From Flavobacterium channae (GTDB lineage: Bacteria; Bacteroidota; Bacteroidia; Flavobacteriales; Flavobacteriaceae): DNA of 64,000 bases. Below the pieces are notes generated by a model. The model searched no databases. It saw only the letters and a list, made by a program, of their open reading frames with translations, and was not told where the DNA came from. Position numbers and translations under genes: made by a program. Location: assembly GCF_021172165.1 (NCBI RefSeq), contig NZ_CP089096.1, positions 1,488,001 through 1,552,000 on the forward strand. Direction: 5' to 3'. The stretch's first letter is position 1. Each line of letters starts with the position of its first letter. Below, piece after piece: positions 4,318 to 22,240 of the stretch.

Positions 4318-4391
4318 TGATCGCGCCAGGATTCGAACCTGGGACCTACTCATTAGAAGTGAGTTGCTCTATCCAGCTGAGCTACGCAACC
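4318..4391 (-). tRNA. tRNA-Arg (anticodon TCT)
   Basis: The minus strand folds into a cloverleaf. The acceptor is GGTTGCG paired with CGCGATC (two G-U pairs). The D-arm is GCTC/GAGC, the anticodon stem is ACTCA/TGAGT with loop CTTCTAA, and the T-arm is CCAGG TTCGAAT CCTGG. The anticodon is TCT, reading AGA/AGG. CCA is not encoded: the discriminator A is followed by CAAAAAG and then the terminator. It is the last of three tRNAs in the operon. Confidence 0.95.
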
Positions 4392-4406
4392 TATTATTTT
4401 TTTTCG

Positions 4407-4481
4407 TCGGGGTGGCAGGATTCGAACCTGCGGCCTCCTGCTCCCAAAGCAGGCGCGATAACCGGGCTACGCTACACCCCG
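4407..4481 (-). tRNA. tRNA-Pro (anticodon TGG)
   Basis: Cloverleaf on the minus strand: acceptor CGGGGTG/CACCCCG, anticodon stem CCTGC/GCAGG with loop TTTGGGA, T-arm GCAGG TTCGAAT CCTGC. The C1-G72 start is typical of bacterial tRNA-Pro. The 3' CCA is not encoded. It sits 15 bases from each neighbouring tRNA, so the three are probably processed from one transcript. Confidence 0.95.
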
Positions 4482-4496
4482 AAAAAAACAAAAAAG

Positions 4497-4580
4497 CGGA
4501 GAGACAGGGACTCGAACCCTGGCGACGGTTACCCGTCGACAGATTAGCAATCTGCTCCGTTACCACTCCGGCACCTCTCC
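4497..4580 (-). tRNA. tRNA-Ser (anticodon GCT)
   Basis: Class II tRNA of 84 bases with a long variable arm (CGACGGGTAACCGTCG forms the extra stem). The acceptor is GGAGAGG/TCTCTCC, the anticodon loop is TTGCTAA, and the T-arm is CAGGG TTCGAGT CCCTG. The anticodon GCT reads AGC/AGT. It is the first gene of the operon; CCA is not encoded. Confidence 0.95.
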
Positions 4581-15658: not shown

Positions 15659-17161
15659 TTAATCTTCCATTTCTATTTGAAAACTATTCAAAAACGAAAC
15701 TGATTTTTCTATATCATAATGTAAAATTCTATCTTCTGATACAAACGGAACTTCCTCGCGATACGATTTCACAAAACTTTCAATAAACTCGCTTGATTTC
15801 AATGGTCTTCTGAATTCTAATGCTTGTGAACCGTTTAATAATTCGATTGCTAAAATACGTTCTACATTTTCAACAATACGTAATGTTTTTGTAGCTGCAT
15901 TTGCTCCCATACTCACGTGATCTTCTTGACCATTTGATGAAACAATACTGTCGATACTTGCTGGCGTAGCCAATTGTTTATTTTGGCTTGCAATACTTGC
16001 CGCTGTATATTGTGGAATCATGAAACCTGAATTCAATCCTGGATCATTAACTAAGAAAGCAGGTAAATTACGTAATCCAGAAATTAACTGATACGTTCTT
16101 CTTTCAGAAATACTTCCTAATTCTGATAAAGCCATTCCTAAGAAATCCAAAGCTAAAGCTAATGGTTGTCCGTGGAAATTTCCACCAGAAATAATCATAT
16201 CTTCTCCAACAAAAATATTGGGGTTATCAGTAACCGAATTAATTTCAGTACGGAATACTTTCTTCACATAATCAATCGTATCTTTTGAAGCACCATGCAC
16301 TTGAGGGATACATCTAAATGAATACGGATCTTGCACATGAACTTTAGGTTGTGCAATGATTTCGCTATCTTCTAACAAATCGCGCATTCTTTCCGCAGTT
16401 TGTACTTGACCTTTATGTGGGCGAACTAAGTGAATTAAATCAGTAAATGGTTCTAATCTACCATCAAATCCTTCTAATGAAACAGCACTAATTACATCTG
16501 CTAAATACGAAATTTTCTCTGCTTTAATCAAACAGTAAACACCGTAAGCACTCATGAATTGCGTTCCATTCAATAAAGCCAAACCTTCTTTTGATTGTAA
16601 AACGATAGGTTGCCAACCAAATTTCTCTAATACTTTAGAAGCTGGTTGTCTGAAACCATCTACATAAACTTCACCTTCTCCTAATAATGGTAATGATAAA
16701 TGCGCTAAAGGAGCTAAATCTCCAGATGCACCAAGAGAACCTTGTGTGTAAATTACTGGAAAAACATCATTGTTATAAAAGTCAATCAAACGTTGCACTG
16801 TTACTAACTGAACACCCGAATGTCCGTAGCTTAACGATTGAATTTTAAGCAACAACATGATTTTTACAATTTCAGAAGGTACTTCCTCTCCTGTTCCACA
16901 TGCATGCGATTTTACTAAGTTTTCTTGTAACTTAGACAAATTCTCATTTGAAATTTTTACATTACATAACGATCCAAAACCAGTGTTAATTCCATAAATA
17001 GGTGTAGAATTGGATTGCATTTTATCGTCTAAATACTTTCTACATTTTTCAATGTTTACAATAGCTTCTTCTGATAATGCCAATTGTTTTCCTTGAAAAA
17101 CAATGTCATTAATCATATCAATTGACAATAAATCTGAACTTATATAATGTGTAGTTTCCAT
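15659..17161 (-). CDS. hutH: Histidine ammonia-lyase
   Basis: 500 residues; converts L-histidine to urocanate and ammonia, the first step of histidine degradation. The MIO cofactor precursor Ala145-Ser146-Gly147 is visible in GSLGASGDLAPLAHL, and Tyr56 in YGINTGFG is the catalytic tyrosine. The QDPYSFRCIPQVHG segment and the NPNIF segment match HutH rather than phenylalanine ammonia-lyase or tyrosine aminomutase. The gene stands alone; hutI and a formimidoylglutamase gene lie 27-32 kb away in this window and hutU is absent from it. Confidence 0.93.
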   Translation of the reverse strand: METTHYISSDLLSIDMINDIVFQGKQLALSEEAIVNIEKCRKYLDDKMQSNSTPIYGINTGFGSLCNVKISNENLSKLQENLVKSHACGTGEEVPSEIVKIMLLLKIQSLSYGHSGVQLVTVQRLIDFYNNDVFPVIYTQGSLGASGDLAPLAHLSLPLLGEGEVYVDGFRQPASKVLEKFGWQPIVLQSKEGLALLNGTQFMSAYGVYCLIKAEKISYLADVISAVSLEGFDGRLEPFTDLIHLVRPHKGQVQTAERMRDLLEDSEIIAQPKVHVQDPYSFRCIPQVHGASKDTIDYVKKVFRTEINSVTDNPNIFVGEDMIISGGNFHGQPLALALDFLGMALSELGSISERRTYQLISGLRNLPAFLVNDPGLNSGFMIPQYTAASIASQNKQLATPASIDSIVSSNGQEDHVSMGANAATKTLRIVENVERILAIELLNGSQALEFRRPLKSSEFIESFVKSYREEVPFVSEDRILHYDIEKSVSFLNSFQIEMED

Positions 17162-17351
17162 ACTTTTATTTTAAAAGCCAAAATTCTACAAACATTCGTG
17201 AAAAAGCAAATTAAACTCAAACAAAAATTATCAATAAAATAAAATTTAACAGATAAATATTATAATTTATTGAATTATCGTATTAGCAAGATTAAAAATT
17301 TAATAAAATCATAAAAAGAGTACAAAATTTTTAAATGTTTTATCGTTTACT

Positions 17352-17359
17352 TAAATTTG
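17352..17359 (+). promoter_or_regulatory. Candidate -7 box of the thr operon
   Basis: TAAATTTG matches TAnnTTTG exactly. No good -33 TTG is present at the usual distance. The G is only five bases before the leader-peptide ATG, so the transcript would have little or no 5' untranslated region. Confidence 0.4.
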
Positions 17360-17364
17360 TATCA

Positions 17365-17481
17365 ATGATTAAAAGTCAGTCGAAATATTTATTAAATTCT
17401 AATCCACAGATCATTTCTTCTTGTGGCATTTCGACTATTGTAACGACTACAGTTACAACTACTACCCCATTTGGGGTTTAA
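17365..17481 (+). CDS. Threonine-rich leader peptide of the thr operon
   Basis: A 38-codon reading frame lies alone in the 393-base gap between hutH and thrA. Its C-terminal half reads STIVTTTVTTTTPFGV: eight Thr codons of all four kinds (ACT, ACG, ACA, ACC), with Ile and Val among them. This matches the logic of the E. coli thr leader, where Thr and Ile codons sense charged tRNA and control transcription attenuation of thrABC. The peptide ends 73 bases before thrA. It has no resemblance to a functional protein. The name is by analogy; no homologue search was possible. Confidence 0.75.
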   Translation: MIKSQSKYLLNSNPQIISSCGISTIVTTTVTTTTPFGV

Positions 17482-17486
17482 TTCTT
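17404..17486 (+). promoter_or_regulatory. Candidate thr attenuator hairpins
   Basis: Three consecutive stems can be drawn in and after the leader. CCACA (17404-17408) pairs with TGTGG (17422-17426). TTGTAAC (17438-17444) pairs with GTTACAA (17452-17458) across the Thr codons. ACCCC (17464-17468) pairs with GGGGT (17473-17477) and is followed by TTAATTCTT, a weak terminator-like tail. I could not draw a convincing competing antiterminator by eye, so the switch mechanism is not established. Confidence 0.45.
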
Positions 17487-17554
17487 ACATATAATACTAT
17501 AACTGTATTGCTATTATTTAGCAAGAAAAATTCTTTTAATCTATATATTCCATT

Positions 17555-18640
17555 ATGTTAGTACTCAAATTTGGCGGTACATCAGTAGCCAATGCTCAAA
17601 ATATAAAAAAAGTCGCTGATATTGTTCAGCAAAAAAAAGACAATCAAAAAATAATTGTTGTAGTATCTGCCTGTAGCGGTGTAACCGACCAACTAGTTCA
17701 GTTGACACACTTGGTTTCTGAAAAAAATAAAGAATACAAAACCAAGTTCTCAAACTTAAAAGAACAACACGAAACAGTTATTCAAGAACTTGACTTGATA
17801 CAGGATGAAAAACTTCAAAAAACTATTCATAAGCATTTCAAACATTTAGAAACATTGTTAGAAGGCTGCTATCTTTTGGGCGATGTACAACCTAAAATTC
17901 ACGACGCTATAATTGGTTATGGCGAATTATTGTCTTCTACTATAATTTCTAGTTTTTTTGCTCAAAAATTTGATAGTGAGAATCCATTTGTTGATAGTCG
18001 TTCTTTAATTGTAACCGATGAAAATTTTGGTAATGCCTATGTTTTTTATCCCGAAACCTATCAACATATTGAAGATTATTTCAAAAAAACAGAGAAATCA
18101 CTATTTGTTTTACCCGGATTTATCGCTAGTTCTCGAAATGGCAGCACCACTACTTTAGGTCGCGGAGGTTCTGATTATAAAGCTGCCATCTTAGCTAATG
18201 GTGTTTCTGCTGATTCTCTAGAAATTTGGACAGATGTCAGCGGAATGTATGTGGCCAATCCTAAAATTGTGAAACAAGCGCAACCTATCGCTTCTATTTC
18301 ATACCAAGAAGCGATGGAATTATCTCATTTTGGTGCCAAAGTTTTGTATCCGCCAACAATCCAACCGGCGCTTAAAAAACAAATCCCAATTTGGATCAAA
18401 AATACCTTTGCTCCTAACGAACATGGTACTTTGATTTCCAATCAAAATACAACACCACAACAATCGGTAAAAGGAATTAGTAATATTGATAAAATCGCTT
18501 TACTAACGCTTAAAGCGGCGGAATGGTTGGTGTTTCCGGTATTGCTAAAAAGCTTTTCGAAACCTTATCGTTGCACAACATCAATGTTATTTTCATCACT
18601 CAGGCGTCATCCGAACATTCTATTTGTATCGGAATATTAG
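17555..18640 (+). CDS. thrA: Aspartokinase part of ThrA (5' portion of a frameshifted gene)
   Basis: This is the N-terminal, aspartate kinase part of bifunctional ThrA, which phosphorylates aspartate in the first step of threonine synthesis. It starts with MLVLKFGGTSVANAQN (kinase motif KFGGTSV), then GRGGSDYKAA and the regulatory ACT region. The frame follows the family until GISNIDKIALLTLK near residue 320. It then runs into a sequence without homology-like character (AAEWLVFPVLL) and stops about 40 codons later. The ACT continuation (GMVGVSGIAKKLFE) is in the -1 frame. Restoring one A in the AAA run at 18512-18514 rejoins the two halves without a gap. It may be a sequencing error, a real lesion, or two separate polypeptides. 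Confidence 0.85.
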   Translation: MLVLKFGGTSVANAQNIKKVADIVQQKKDNQKIIVVVSACSGVTDQLVQLTHLVSEKNKEYKTKFSNLKEQHETVIQELDLIQDEKLQKTIHKHFKHLETLLEGCYLLGDVQPKIHDAIIGYGELLSSTIISSFFAQKFDSENPFVDSRSLIVTDENFGNAYVFYPETYQHIEDYFKKTEKSLFVLPGFIASSRNGSTTTLGRGGSDYKAAILANGVSADSLEIWTDVSGMYVANPKIVKQAQPIASISYQEAMELSHFGAKVLYPPTIQPALKKQIPIWIKNTFAPNEHGTLISNQNTTPQQSVKGISNIDKIALLTLKAAEWLVFPVLLKSFSKPYRCTTSMLFSSLRRHPNILFVSEY

Positions 18641-20001
18641 AAAATCAGGCTGAAAAAGCCAAAAAATATATCGACGAAGTGTTTCACAAGGAAATTACTC
18701 ACGGTCAATTGAATGCGTGTCAATTAGAAAAAGATTTGAGTATCATTGCACTTGTGGGTGACCAAATGAAAAATCATCAAGGATTGAGCGGAAAAATGTT
18801 CAGTACTTTAGGTCGAAATAATGTTAATGTTCGCGCCATTGCACAAGGAGCTTCCGAACGTAATATTTCGGCTGTAATCAATTCAAAAGATGTGATAAAA
18901 GCATTAAATGCATTGCATGAAGTTTTCTTTGAAACCGTAACCAAACAATTAAATTTATTTGTGGTTGGAACGGGAAATGTTGGAAGTAAATTCATTGAAC
19001 AAATTTCAAACCAACAAGAATTTTTGAAACAAAACCTAAATATTTCGGTTCGTATTTTGGGATTATCCAACAGCCGAAAAATGCATTTTGATAAAGAAGG
19101 AATCGACTTAAAAAACTGGAAAGAAACTTTAGAAAACGGTAAAAAAGCATCGTTAGCCGAATTCACTTCCAAGGTCAAAGAAATCAACGTGCGTAATAGT
19201 ATTTTCGTTGACAATACTGCTGACGCCGATGTTTCGACTTGGTACAATACTTGTCTAAAAAATAGTATTGCAGTAGTCACTTGTAATAAAATTGCTTGTT
19301 CGTCTCCGCTAGAAAATTATAGAGAACTGAAAGATTTGGTACGACAATACAAAGTTCCGTTTTTATTTGAAACGAATGTTGGAGCCGGTTTACCAATTAT
19401 TGATACCCTAAAAAATTGCATTGCCAGTGGCGACAGAATTCATAAAATTCAAGCGGTTTTATCAGGAAGTTTGAACTTTATCTTCAATAATTTCAACAGA
19501 TATGACACTTATATTGACATAGTAAAACAAGCTCAAATTGAAGGTTATACAGAACCTGATCCTAAGATTGATTTAAGTGGTGTTGATGTTATGCGTAAGC
19601 TTTTAATTCTTATTAGAGAAAGTGGTTATGCTTACGAAATGAGTGATATTGCTAACGAAAGTTTTTTACCCAAAGAATGTTTGGATACGACTTCAGTGCC
19701 CGACTTTTTAACGAGTTTAGAAACTCATAAAGCACATTTTAACGAGTTATTGAAAGAAGCACAAACTAAAGAATGTCGCTTAAAATATGTAGCCCAATTT
19801 GACAATGGAAAAGCATCTGTTGGTTTACAATTCATCGCTAAAGACCATCCGTTTTATCATTTAGACGGAAAAGACAATATTGTATTATTCTACACCGATC
19901 GTTACAAAGAACAACCTTTACTCATTAAAGGTGCTGGTGCTGGTGCTGACGTAACAGCTTCGGGAATTTTTGCAGATGTAATACGTGTAGGAAACTTTTA
20001 A
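18523..20001 (+). CDS. thrA: Homoserine dehydrogenase part of ThrA (3' portion of a frameshifted gene)
   Basis: This 492-residue frame carries the remaining ACT-domain segments (ITQASSEHSICIG and VRAIAQGASERNISAVI) followed by the homoserine dehydrogenase domain: the NAD(P)-binding GTGNVGS near residue 150, FVDNTAD, TCNKIA, ETNVGAGLPII, and the catalytic segment GSLNFIFNNF with EPDPKIDLSGVDVMRKLLIL. It overlaps the upstream frame by 118 bases in the -1 frame. The ATG at 18523 directly follows the point where homology resumes and is preceded by GGCGGA, so independent initiation cannot be excluded. It is followed at 10 bases by thrB. Confidence 0.85.
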   Translation: MVGVSGIAKKLFETLSLHNINVIFITQASSEHSICIGILENQAEKAKKYIDEVFHKEITHGQLNACQLEKDLSIIALVGDQMKNHQGLSGKMFSTLGRNNVNVRAIAQGASERNISAVINSKDVIKALNALHEVFFETVTKQLNLFVVGTGNVGSKFIEQISNQQEFLKQNLNISVRILGLSNSRKMHFDKEGIDLKNWKETLENGKKASLAEFTSKVKEINVRNSIFVDNTADADVSTWYNTCLKNSIAVVTCNKIACSSPLENYRELKDLVRQYKVPFLFETNVGAGLPIIDTLKNCIASGDRIHKIQAVLSGSLNFIFNNFNRYDTYIDIVKQAQIEGYTEPDPKIDLSGVDVMRKLLILIRESGYAYEMSDIANESFLPKECLDTTSVPDFLTSLETHKAHFNELLKEAQTKECRLKYVAQFDNGKASVGLQFIAKDHPFYHLDGKDNIVLFYTDRYKEQPLLIKGAGAGADVTASGIFADVIRVGNF

Positions 20002-20011
20002 AAAATTGATT

Positions 20012-20932
20012 ATGAACGAAATAAAAATATTTTGCCCAGCAACAGTTGCTAATCTTTCTTGTGGTTTCGATATCATCGGACTGTGTTTAGAAGGCATTGG
20101 CGACGAAATGATTTTCCGTAAAAAAGAAGCACCAGGAATTACCATTACTCAAATTACCGGCGCTGATTTACCTTATGAAACTTCAAAAAATGTGTCTGGA
20201 GTTGCCGCTCAAGCTTTAGTCGATCATTTACAACTCGATTATGGTTTTGAAATTGAAATTCACAAAAAAATTAAAGTCGGAAGTGGTATTGGAAGTAGCG
20301 CAGCAAGTGCTGCTGGAGCCGTTTATGGCATTAACGTTTTAGCCGGTAATCCGTTGACTAAAAAAGAATTGGTTCTTTTTAGCATGATTGGTGAAGCCAT
20401 TGCCAGTGGCTCTTTACATGCCGATAACGTTGCTCCTGCTCTTTTAGGTGGATTTTCCTTAATTAGAGGTTACGAACCTTTAGATTTAATCAATATTGAA
20501 AGCCCGAGTGAATTGCATGTTGTGGTTATTCATCCACATATTGAAGTCAAAACTTCAGAAGCCAGAGCCGTTTTACCGAAAGAGGTTCCGTTGAAAAGTG
20601 CCATTATGCAATGGGGAAATGTGGCCGGATTAGTAGCAGGTTTGTACACCGAAGATTATGACTTAATTGGTCGTTCTGTGGTTGATGTTATCGTAGAACC
20701 GGCTCGTAAAAATTTGATTCCTCATTTTGAAGAATTGAAGCAAAGTGCTTTAGAAAACGGCGCTTTGAACTCTGGAATTTCGGGTTCAGGACCTTCAATT
20801 TTTGCTTTATGCAAAGGAATTCAAATAGCTGAAAAAGTGAAAGATAAATTCAATGAATTAGGAAAAGAATTTTACACTTCTTTTGATGTTCATTGTTCTA
20901 AAGTAAACAACACTGGTGTAGTAATTATATAA
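20012..20932 (+). CDS. thrB: Homoserine kinase
   Basis: 306 residues; phosphorylates homoserine, the fourth step from aspartate to threonine. GHMP-kinase motifs are visible: the N-terminal CPATVANLSCGFD, the ATP-binding glycine-rich loop KVGSGIGSSAASA near 89-100, and the C-terminal GSGPSIFAL. The ATG at 20012 is used; an in-frame ATT six bases upstream is not needed. It is the third gene of the leader-thrA-thrB-thrC operon, with a 10-base gap to thrA and a 15-base gap to thrC. Confidence 0.95.
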   Translation: MNEIKIFCPATVANLSCGFDIIGLCLEGIGDEMIFRKKEAPGITITQITGADLPYETSKNVSGVAAQALVDHLQLDYGFEIEIHKKIKVGSGIGSSAASAAGAVYGINVLAGNPLTKKELVLFSMIGEAIASGSLHADNVAPALLGGFSLIRGYEPLDLINIESPSELHVVVIHPHIEVKTSEARAVLPKEVPLKSAIMQWGNVAGLVAGLYTEDYDLIGRSVVDVIVEPARKNLIPHFEELKQSALENGALNSGISGSGPSIFALCKGIQIAEKVKDKFNELGKEFYTSFDVHCSKVNNTGVVII

Positions 20933-20947
20933 TTAGTAAAATTAAAA

Positions 20948-22240
20948 ATGAAATATTTCAGTACCAATAATCACAATATAAAAGTTCGTTTTAAAGACGC
21001 TGTAATTCATGGATTAGCGCCCGATAAAGGTTTGTATTTTCCAGAAGAAATTCCGCAGTTACCACAAAGTTTTTTTAATAATATCGAAAATCTTTCGGAT
21101 ACCGAAATCGCTTATACCGTTTTACAACCTTTCATTGGCGACGAAATTCCGGAATATGCTTTAAAAGAAATCATCAACGAAACCTTGACTTTCGATTTTC
21201 CGGTAGTCAAAATAACGGAAGATTTGTATTCATTAGAACTTTTCCACGGACCAACATTAGCTTTTAAAGACGTTGGCGCAAGATTCATGTCGCGTTGTTT
21301 GGGTTACTTTAACAGAAATTCTAATGAAAATGTGACTGTTTTAGTTGCAACTTCCGGCGATACCGGTGGTGCGGTTGCTAATGGCTTTTTAGGCGTGAAA
21401 GGCGTAAAAGTAGTGATCCTCTACCCTTCTAAACGTGTAAGTGATATTCAGGAAAAACAATTAACTACTTTGGGAGGAAACATTTTTGCTTTGGAAGTAA
21501 CCGATACTTTCGACACTTGCCAAGCTATGGTTAAAAAAGCTTTTTTGGATAGTTCATTGCAAAAATACAATCTAACTTCAGCTAATTCTATCAATGTGGC
21601 GCGTTGGTTACCTCAAATGATTTACTATTTTGTAGCTTATAAAAAACTGAAAAAGCTTCAGCAAAAAGTAGTTATTTCATGTCCAAGTGGAAATTTCGGA
21701 AACATTTGTGCCGGTTTATTGGCTTACAAAATGGGATTACCAATCGAACAATTTATCGCAGCTACCAATGCTAATAATACGGTTCCACGCTTTTTAGAAA
21801 CCGAAGAATATTTACCGTCGCAAACGGTTGCCACATTATCAAACGCTATGGATGTGAGTAATCCGAGTAATTTTGTGCGAATTTTAGAATTATTCCATCA
21901 AAATGTTCCGGAATTGAAATCGGTGTTTTCGTCGTATTCGTATAATGATTTACAAACTAAAAAAGCAATCCAAGAACTATATTCTAAATACGATTACGTT
22001 GCCGATCCGCATGGAGCTGTTGGTTATTTAGGAACACAAAAAGCAACGATTCCAAATAGTGTAAAAGTATTTTTAGAAACGGCACATCCTATCAAATTTA
22101 AAGACGCTGTAGAACAAGTTATTGACAAAGAATTACCATTACCTGATGACATTTCAGCTATTATTGAAAAAGAGAAAAAATCGATTGTAATTGAGAATTA
22201 CGAAGAACTAAAGGAAAGTCTGGCTTTAATTTACAGATAA
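20948..22240 (+). CDS. thrC: Threonine synthase
   Basis: 430 residues; a PLP enzyme that converts O-phosphohomoserine to threonine. The PLP lysine is Lys107 in GPTLAFKDVGARF. The phosphate-binding loop TSGDTGGAVANGF follows, then SANSINVARWLPQ, the hallmark of the bacterial ThrC subfamily, and the C-terminal DPHGAVGYLG. It completes the threonine operon. No intrinsic terminator with a clear stem is visible directly after the stop codon. Confidence 0.95.
   Translation: MKYFSTNNHNIKVRFKDAVIHGLAPDKGLYFPEEIPQLPQSFFNNIENLSDTEIAYTVLQPFIGDEIPEYALKEIINETLTFDFPVVKITEDLYSLELFHGPTLAFKDVGARFMSRCLGYFNRNSNENVTVLVATSGDTGGAVANGFLGVKGVKVVILYPSKRVSDIQEKQLTTLGGNIFALEVTDTFDTCQAMVKKAFLDSSLQKYNLTSANSINVARWLPQMIYYFVAYKKLKKLQQKVVISCPSGNFGNICAGLLAYKMGLPIEQFIAATNANNTVPRFLETEEYLPSQTVATLSNAMDVSNPSNFVRILELFHQNVPELKSVFSSYSYNDLQTKKAIQELYSKYDYVADPHGAVGYLGTQKATIPNSVKVFLETAHPIKFKDAVEQVIDKELPLPDDISAIIEKEKKSIVIENYEELKESLALIYR

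Follow-up and report, generated by a model that had tools for sequence, protein, structure and literature searches.

A conserved threonine leader peptide upstream of thrABC in Flavobacterium channae and its relatives, and a candidate attenuator without a canonical terminator

The threonine leader and its operon

The window analyzed in this study, a stretch of 64,000 nucleotides (nt) from Flavobacterium channae (contig NZ_CP089096.1, positions 1,488,001 to 1,552,000, forward strand), contains a short open reading frame (ORF) rich in threonine (Thr) codons directly upstream of the threonine biosynthesis genes thrA, thrB and thrC. A sequence-only reading of this DNA had proposed that the frame encodes the leader peptide of an attenuator. 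Judged by its conservation, the frame is a genuine, conserved Thr leader upstream of thrABC. The features of the locus are listed below (positions are those of the window, and lengths of stems are in base pairs, bp).

15659-17161, minus strand: hutH (identity checked), the upstream neighbor of the Thr leader
17352-17359, plus strand: likely -7 promoter box, TAAATTTG (TAnnTTTG type), read from the sequence
17365-17481, plus strand: Thr leader peptide of 38 codons, MIKSQSKYLLNSNPQIISSCGISTIVTTTVTTTTPFGV, with the stop codon TAA at 17479-17481
17378-17436, plus strand: hairpin H0, AGTCGAAAT/ATTTCGACT, with the inner stem CCACA/TGTGG, inside the leader frame (-14 kcal/mol, z -4.3)
17438-17458, plus strand: 7-bp stem TTGTAAC/GTTACAA over the Thr codons (-6 kcal/mol, z -3.5), present here and in the nearest relative
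17443-17466, plus strand: predicted stall codons ACG ACT ACA GTT ACA ACT ACT ACC; among the leaders, codons -6 to 0 relative to H1 are enriched in Thr and isoleucine (Ile)
17464-17477, plus strand: hairpin H1, ACCCC-ATTT-GGGGT, overlapping the codons Thr-Pro-Phe-Gly (-8 kcal/mol, z only -1.6)
17488-17497, plus strand: motif S3, CATATAATAC, 10 nt past H1
17508-17524, plus strand: hairpin H3, TTGCTA-TTATT-TAGCAA, with no U tract after it (-5.6 kcal/mol, z -2.8)
17555-20001, plus strand: thrA (bifunctional aspartokinase/homoserine dehydrogenase I), in two overlapping frames, 17555-18640 and 18523-20001
20006-20932, plus strand: thrB (homoserine kinase)
20948-22240, plus strand: thrC (threonine synthase)

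The leader thus lies 5' of its cognate operon and on the same strand, and thrA, thrB and thrC are probably carried on one transcript. The frame was confirmed as it had been described, with 38 codons and eight Thr codons of four kinds (ACT, ACG, ACA and ACC) between hutH and thrA. These eight codons fall among the last 16 residues, and the C-terminal end reads STIVTTTVTTTTPFGV. The end coordinate given earlier, 17486, overshoots the stop codon by 5 nt. A longer version of the ORF (48 amino acids, aa) has its start at 17335, which precedes the likely -7 box.

Conservation of the leader peptide

Relatives were collected with the N-terminal part of ThrA, using the best 80 of 554 loci (mostly labeled Flavobacterium or Flavobacteriaceae), to which were added 30 loci from further genomes of the genus and genomes of the wider family (about one per genus). 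The wider family was represented by 89 upstream regions, obtained from the 119 other family genomes that had a match. Loci L001-L111 are referred to as the Flavobacterium set, which includes some whose label is vague or not Flavobacterium (e.g. L002, L009 and L075), and one locus counted in the wider-family set, L144, is a Flavobacterium. Related sequences in all counts are not independent of each other.

A fixed rule was applied: the frame had to end at the hairpin, and four or more of the seven codons preceding its Thr codon had to encode Thr or Ile. The rule identified a leader in 92 of the 96 distinct thrA upstream regions of the Flavobacterium set and in 63 of the 89 wider-family regions, whereas it gave no match on the reverse strands of the same 185 regions and none in the his and ilv control loci (218 kb, counting both strands). 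These counts bear out the proposed Thr-codon leader peptide of the thr operon, which is present in more than 60 genera. Misses in the Flavobacterium set were L004, L074, L075 and L093, and in two of these (L074 and L093) the hairpin is present and the rule fails on a detail. Some of the wider-family misses also still have the hairpin (e.g. L145, L151, L157 and L198).

The codon profile was derived from 166 distinct leaders aligned on H1 (92 from the Flavobacterium set and 74 others). These were picked by the H1 pattern, taking the candidate highest in Thr and Ile where there were several, so that codon 0 is Thr by selection. In the Flavobacterium set Thr was dominant at codons -5 to 0 (66-100%; 97% at -1 and 93% at -2), and in the other leaders Thr and Ile together were dominant at codons -6 to 0 (54-100%; 89% at -1 and 76% at -5). 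The peak comprises the seven codons ending at H1, while earlier codons and the N-terminal half of the peptide drift. Retention of Thr codons amid an otherwise variable sequence, which had been named beforehand as the expected sign of a leader, was therefore observed. All four Thr codons are used among the leaders, and the synonymous choice varies.

The peptide past the last Thr is not conserved (TPLG*, TLWGC*, TPFGV*, TP*, TL*), in part because the length of the hairpin loop differs, while the RNA hairpin persists. Selection therefore acts on the amino acid before H1, and on the RNA at H1. A second Thr cluster was found in Flavobacterium at codons -16 to -18. By eye, the second Thr pair and the GTTGC that follows it form a covarying hairpin at codons of about -19 to -11 of the Flavobacterium set (variants CAACTC/GAGTTG, CAACC/GGTTG and CAGC/GCTG) in a structured region, and its 3' arm could pair with the main Thr run as well.

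RNA structure and hairpin H1

The leader RNA of the window (17360-17554, 195 nt) folds at -42.8 kcal/mol, compared with a shuffle mean of -22.8 (z -6.0; 0 of 200 shuffles were as good), and has four local hairpins when each is folded alone (H0, the 7-bp stem, H1 and H3). The three stackable hairpins reported earlier therefore hold as a structured region, but not in their number. The nearest relative, L083 (thrA 84% identical), has the same layout, with a compensatory change in the inner stem of H0 (CCGCA/TGCGG) that keeps the pairing. In the Flavobacterium set there is also structure 50-90 nt ahead of S3 (mean z -2.4; 61/92), which is weaker outside the set (mean z -1.0 and -0.4). The 7-bp stem over the Thr codons, also part of the sequence-only reading, was found in the window and in L083; the consensus fold of 62 aligned leaders lacks it and retains H1 alone.

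H1 has the consensus ACCCC/GGGGU and is located at the last codons and the stop codon of the leader; in the window the stop starts 2 nt beyond it. It lies where the regulatory codons end and is a candidate pause hairpin. The sequences of alignment A1 were selected with a pattern that includes H1 and CATA, so that the invariance of these two there is by construction.

Outside the family 80 loci were examined. Twenty-four "far" leaders were first picked by eye; the third pair of H1 in these is CG in 8, GC in 12, GU in 3 and AU in 1. The shuffle control on the stem analysis of these 24 was uninformative (0.64-0.96), and it was replaced by a set of 30 leaders defined by leader content alone (at least five Thr or Ile of nine, within the last 16 residues). 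A stem of at least 5 bp over the stop codon was present in 19 of the 30, compared with 3.6 expected from shuffles. In four more (L270, L278, L290 and L294) H1 ends just ahead of the stop, and the remaining seven (L267, L276, L284, L286, L287, L320 and L322) have no H1 at the stop. In family f29 the hairpin is ACGGG/CCCGU with the stop in the loop, so that several pairs are changed on both sides, and in family f47 (L317, L318 and L323) the stem is CAACCC/GGGUUG. The f29 members with the swapped hairpin are L273, L275, L280, L292, L299, L301, L306, L307 and L310-L313, and their leaders end in TG*. Covariance models of Rfam (Thr_leader or any other family) had no match at an expect value (E) of up to 10 in 17162-17620.

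The S3 motif and the H3 region

H1 is followed by S3, whose majority form is CATATAATCC in most Flavobacterium and TATATATTCGTCCG-like elsewhere. A fuller reading, made by eye, is about CATATnnYCC; for counting, the core [CTG]ATA[TC] at 4-13 nt after H1 was used. The core was found 8-12 nt after H1 in 91 of the 92 Flavobacterium-set leaders (89 of them at 9-11 nt; 31.9 expected), 4-11 nt after H1 in 60 of the 74 other leaders (13.6 expected), and 4-12 nt after H1 in 20 of the 24 far leaders (14 at 9-11 nt; 4.9 expected). Overall, the distance was 9-11 nt in 128 of 171 motif-bearing leaders. S3 itself is unstructured. A second hairpin on S3, formed by YCC and a downstream GG, can be drawn by eye in many leaders, and was rejected because it did not exceed shuffles (mean z +0.17, +0.13 and -0.37).

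The H3 region is on average structured beyond shuffles (mean z -1.6, -1.5 and -1.1), and its paired sequences differ between genera. H1-S3-H3 was also turned into a sequence model, for which some of the genomes searched with it were used; it gave E < 1e-4 in 15 of 40 genomes, with one site in each and always beside thrA. These are 15 of the 18 genomes with a thrA match at E < 1e-75, those missed being G001, G016 and G020. Among the weaker matches listed, nine loci were inspected as possible attenuators of other operons and rejected, as they look like chance matches and not leaders. Apparently the element is specific to thrA and is not shared by attenuators at large.

Terminators in thr, his and ilv leaders

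According to a strict rule (stem of at least 6, 4 GC, 6 T of 8), terminators were present in 4 of the 92 Flavobacterium-set thr leaders and 2 of the 74 others (the window not being among them), in 14 of 14 his leaders and in 8 of 8 ilv leaders. The his set was obtained from 15 loci, one of which was dropped as it had no clear His run, and of 16 ilv loci 14 were scanned, from which the eight leaders were selected by eye. The his and ilv leaders of related genomes resemble the thr leader in that a short peptide rich in the cognate amino acid precedes the biosynthetic operon, but they have a GC hairpin and T tract, which thr leaders seldom do. In the genome of the window itself the leader upstream of hisG (L118), MFLNQLHHHHTSAQAK, is followed by a GC hairpin and T tract and looks like a classical attenuator.

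In four of the six strict thr terminators (L025, L048, L171 and L178) the hairpin is H1, followed by a T-rich tail, and two lie upstream within the leader (L085 and L110). A looser rule found terminators in 18/92 and 4/74 thr leaders (1.4 and 1.2 expected), and a still looser consensus scan flags H1 of the window as terminator-like. As a general U-tract terminator H1 was rejected, with averages of 4.1, 3.2 and 3.3 T per 8 nt at the end of the stem and at least six T in only 1/90, 1/64 and 1/21. Three thrA leaders outside the pattern have full terminators (L201, L287 and L314, the last, of family f29, identified by eye), and leader-based attenuation of transcription at thrA is therefore likely elsewhere in the phylum.

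Proposed mechanism and alternatives

From the sequence comparisons, the element is probably a ribosome-mediated attenuator that senses Thr, and in other genera Ile too, through its leader peptide. Sensing of Thr by the leader is well supported, and the proposed output step from the ribosome to transcription is the least certain part. When charged tRNA-Thr is scarce, the ribosome would wait on the Thr codons; given the position of these codons, it would sit on or beside the 5' arm of H1 and cover it, and with H1 blocked RNA polymerase would continue into thrABC. When Thr is plentiful, the ribosome would proceed to the stop codon, located within or immediately past H1, and leave, so that H1 could form and polymerase would be held at S3. 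Polymerase would then stop without a canonical U-tract terminator, either by a pause together with Rho or by a sequence-specific stop. The short distance between H1 and S3 resembles that of hairpin-stabilized pauses. This distance and the arrangement in L006 are the reasons for favoring an effect on polymerase over one on the start of thrA. In L006 the leader and H1-S3 are kept although a 138-aa ORF intervenes and thrA starts 700 nt after the leader, which argues against control at the thrA start site. The intervening ORF (L006:1991-2407), which we take to be GxxExxY-like, has a similar counterpart present as a fragment in L007.

A more specific version, which we regard as possible rather than probable, is that of a terminator-less thr attenuator of Bacteroidota, in which the stop-codon hairpin and the sequence-specific motif S3 (about CATATnnYCC), in a short and fixed spacing of mostly 7-11 nt, would act on RNA polymerase itself as a programmed pause or stop that is gated by the ribosome without an alternative fold.

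Several observations weigh against the proposed attenuator or parts of it. The fixed leader rule fails in 26 of the 89 wider-family regions, some of which are clearly leaderless (e.g. L200, L209 and L218). No canonical terminator is present in 88/92 and 72/74 thr leaders. The commonest H1-S3 distance in the other genera is 7 nt (25/60), with 9-11 nt also in 25/60, and S3 of the window, CATATAATAC, lacks the final CC. No pairing partner for S3 in cis (downstream RNA, leader or Thr codons) clearly exceeded shuffles, nor did any pairing for the competing antiterminator fold that the sequence-only reading had suggested looking for in the leader, and therefore no antiterminator/terminator switch is visible. 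The ratio of C to G after H1 is only mildly rut-like in the other genera (2.1), and in the Flavobacterium set it is 1.3, with an upstream background of 1.4. A ribosome stalled at the early Thr codons of Flavobacterium (-16 to -18) would leave H1 unmasked, which the simple blocking model does not account for. Finally, disrupting the thrL1 hairpin of E. coli hardly shortened the pause, according to results given in PMC9291695.

Among the other explanations, Rho-dependent termination of the tnaC kind appears rather unlikely. Here a stalled ribosome would shield the end of the leader, and after its release Rho would load and stop a polymerase paused near S3, which overlaps with one branch of the mechanism favored above. 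The scarcity of intrinsic terminators in thr leaders fits with this, as does a C/G ratio of 2.1 downstream of H1 in the other genera (1.2 upstream), and the geometry of hairpin and motif is compatible with a pause. However, the C/G ratio in the Flavobacterium set does not rise above its background, and in most other-genus genomes the leader stop is only about 60-90 nt away from thrA (distances were measured to about the fifth codon, and 12 nt were then subtracted), which is short for loading of Rho. The near constancy of that spacing would suit a post-transcriptional role, in which the stalled ribosome, H1 and H3 set the stability of the mRNA or the translation of thrA. It would also fit with the structure of the H3 region and with a single-stranded S3 as a possible protein-binding site, and in the other genera only, S3 is weakly complementary to the region of the thrA start, slightly more so than shuffles (mean z -0.35). 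Retention of the element at 700 nt from thrA in L006 speaks against such a role, as do the spacings of roughly 145-255 nt in L186, L172, L193, L229 and L165, and we consider it unlikely.

A classical attenuator of the E. coli type, in which transcription ends at an intrinsic terminator unless stalling lets S2 (GGGGU) pair with S3 as an antiterminator, is still more doubtful. With the 5' arm of H1 masked, the computed ensemble did contain pairs between GGGGU and S3, which on average involved about 1.7 of the 5 bases. Related genomes do have attenuators of this type upstream of his and ilv genes, as do L201, L287 and L314 upstream of thrA, and the excess of terminators under the looser rule, the four strict terminators formed by H1 and the flagged H1 of the window also point in this direction. 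Nevertheless, canonical terminators are as rare in thr leaders as they are regular in his leaders. An S2:S3 antiterminator was rejected as a general feature, since the complementarity was no better than in shuffles (mean z +0.19) and the pairing is impossible in f29, where the 3' arm of H1 (CCCGU) is unable to pair with the C-rich S3. Low complexity arising from repeat slippage, without a regulatory function, might be considered because the Thr run is locally repetitive, but the mixed synonymous codons, the occurrence in more than 60 genera, the changed yet paired hairpin in another family and the complete lack of matches in the controls make it most improbable.

Relation to known systems

Leader-peptide attenuation is a textbook mechanism, which in its standard examples depends on an intrinsic terminator together with an alternative fold. 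In E. coli, the thrL attenuator has an intrinsic terminator with a U tract. The leader described here is similar in its Thr/Ile codons ahead of the same operon, and different in that most relatives have no terminator, that the stop codon lies within or directly beside the hairpin, and that the hairpin is followed by a conserved motif which stays unpaired. The logic had been taken to be the same as in E. coli; this likeness is only half right, because the Thr leader is upheld and the canonical intrinsic terminator is missing in nearly all leaders. At thrL, a predicted hairpin lies upstream of the leader pause sites, and the pause is NusA-responsive and thought to be hairpin-stabilized, as stated in sections of PMC9291695.

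The signal of the thr leader would be codon starvation, which sets it apart from tnaC, and a role of Rho is here a candidate. In attenuation of the tnaC type, the position of the ribosome near the leader stop decides on read-through without an intrinsic terminator. In pyrL/pyrBI, the hairpin where the leader frame ends is blocked by the ribosome itself, as is proposed here, but that hairpin is a true terminator and the signal is uridine triphosphate (UTP).

Among the papers listed in a literature search, none dealt with a thr leader in Bacteroidetes. The study of Lopatovskaya et al. (2010) is reportedly a wide survey of attenuation, and it might include such a leader. For F. psychrophilum, clues to leader-peptide attenuation ahead of amino acid operons have been described, and pheA and hisG are named as sites of conserved 5' elements; the main text of that study mentions neither threonine nor thrA (PMC9723704). 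In Bacteroides thetaiotaomicron, long 5' untranslated regions contain small ORFs reminiscent of attenuation leader peptides; the example named is a hypothetical protein, and the main text again has neither threonine nor thrA (PMC7366714). The authors of a study on premature terminators stated that they knew of leader systems only in Proteobacteria and Actinobacteria, apart from ermC, to which they added Firmicutes (PMC2965389). Terminator-based screens such as theirs would tend to miss the thr element.

The thr leader occurs in most of the sampled Flavobacteriaceae genera with thrA, and in several other Bacteroidota families. It seems to dispense with both the terminator and the alternative fold, keeping a stop-codon hairpin and a nearby motif. 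If this is true, it would represent a minimal attenuator and provide a candidate sequence signal for programmed pausing or stopping of polymerase in Bacteroidota.

Promoter and neighboring genes

TAnnTTTG was found upstream of the leader in all 92 leaders of the Flavobacterium set and in 71 of the 74 others (raw count, 160-nt search span). A consensus of this type has been reported for sigma-A of F. psychrophilum (PMC9723704). In the window the box ends 5 nt ahead of the leader ATG, and because of this short distance the thr mRNA may be nearly leaderless.

The thrA gene of the window is split near 18520 (361 + 492 aa), and most relatives have a single frame of about 815-880 aa. The split may stem from a sequencing error or a recent lesion, two causes that are indistinguishable here. 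No match to ilvD (PF00920) was found in the complete 2.8 Mb genome of the window (G000), and 11 of 13 genomes of the genus that were searched had a match; the missing match suggests a possible auxotrophy of the host for branched-chain amino acids. Three consecutive tRNA genes are located on the minus strand at 4318-4580 of the window.
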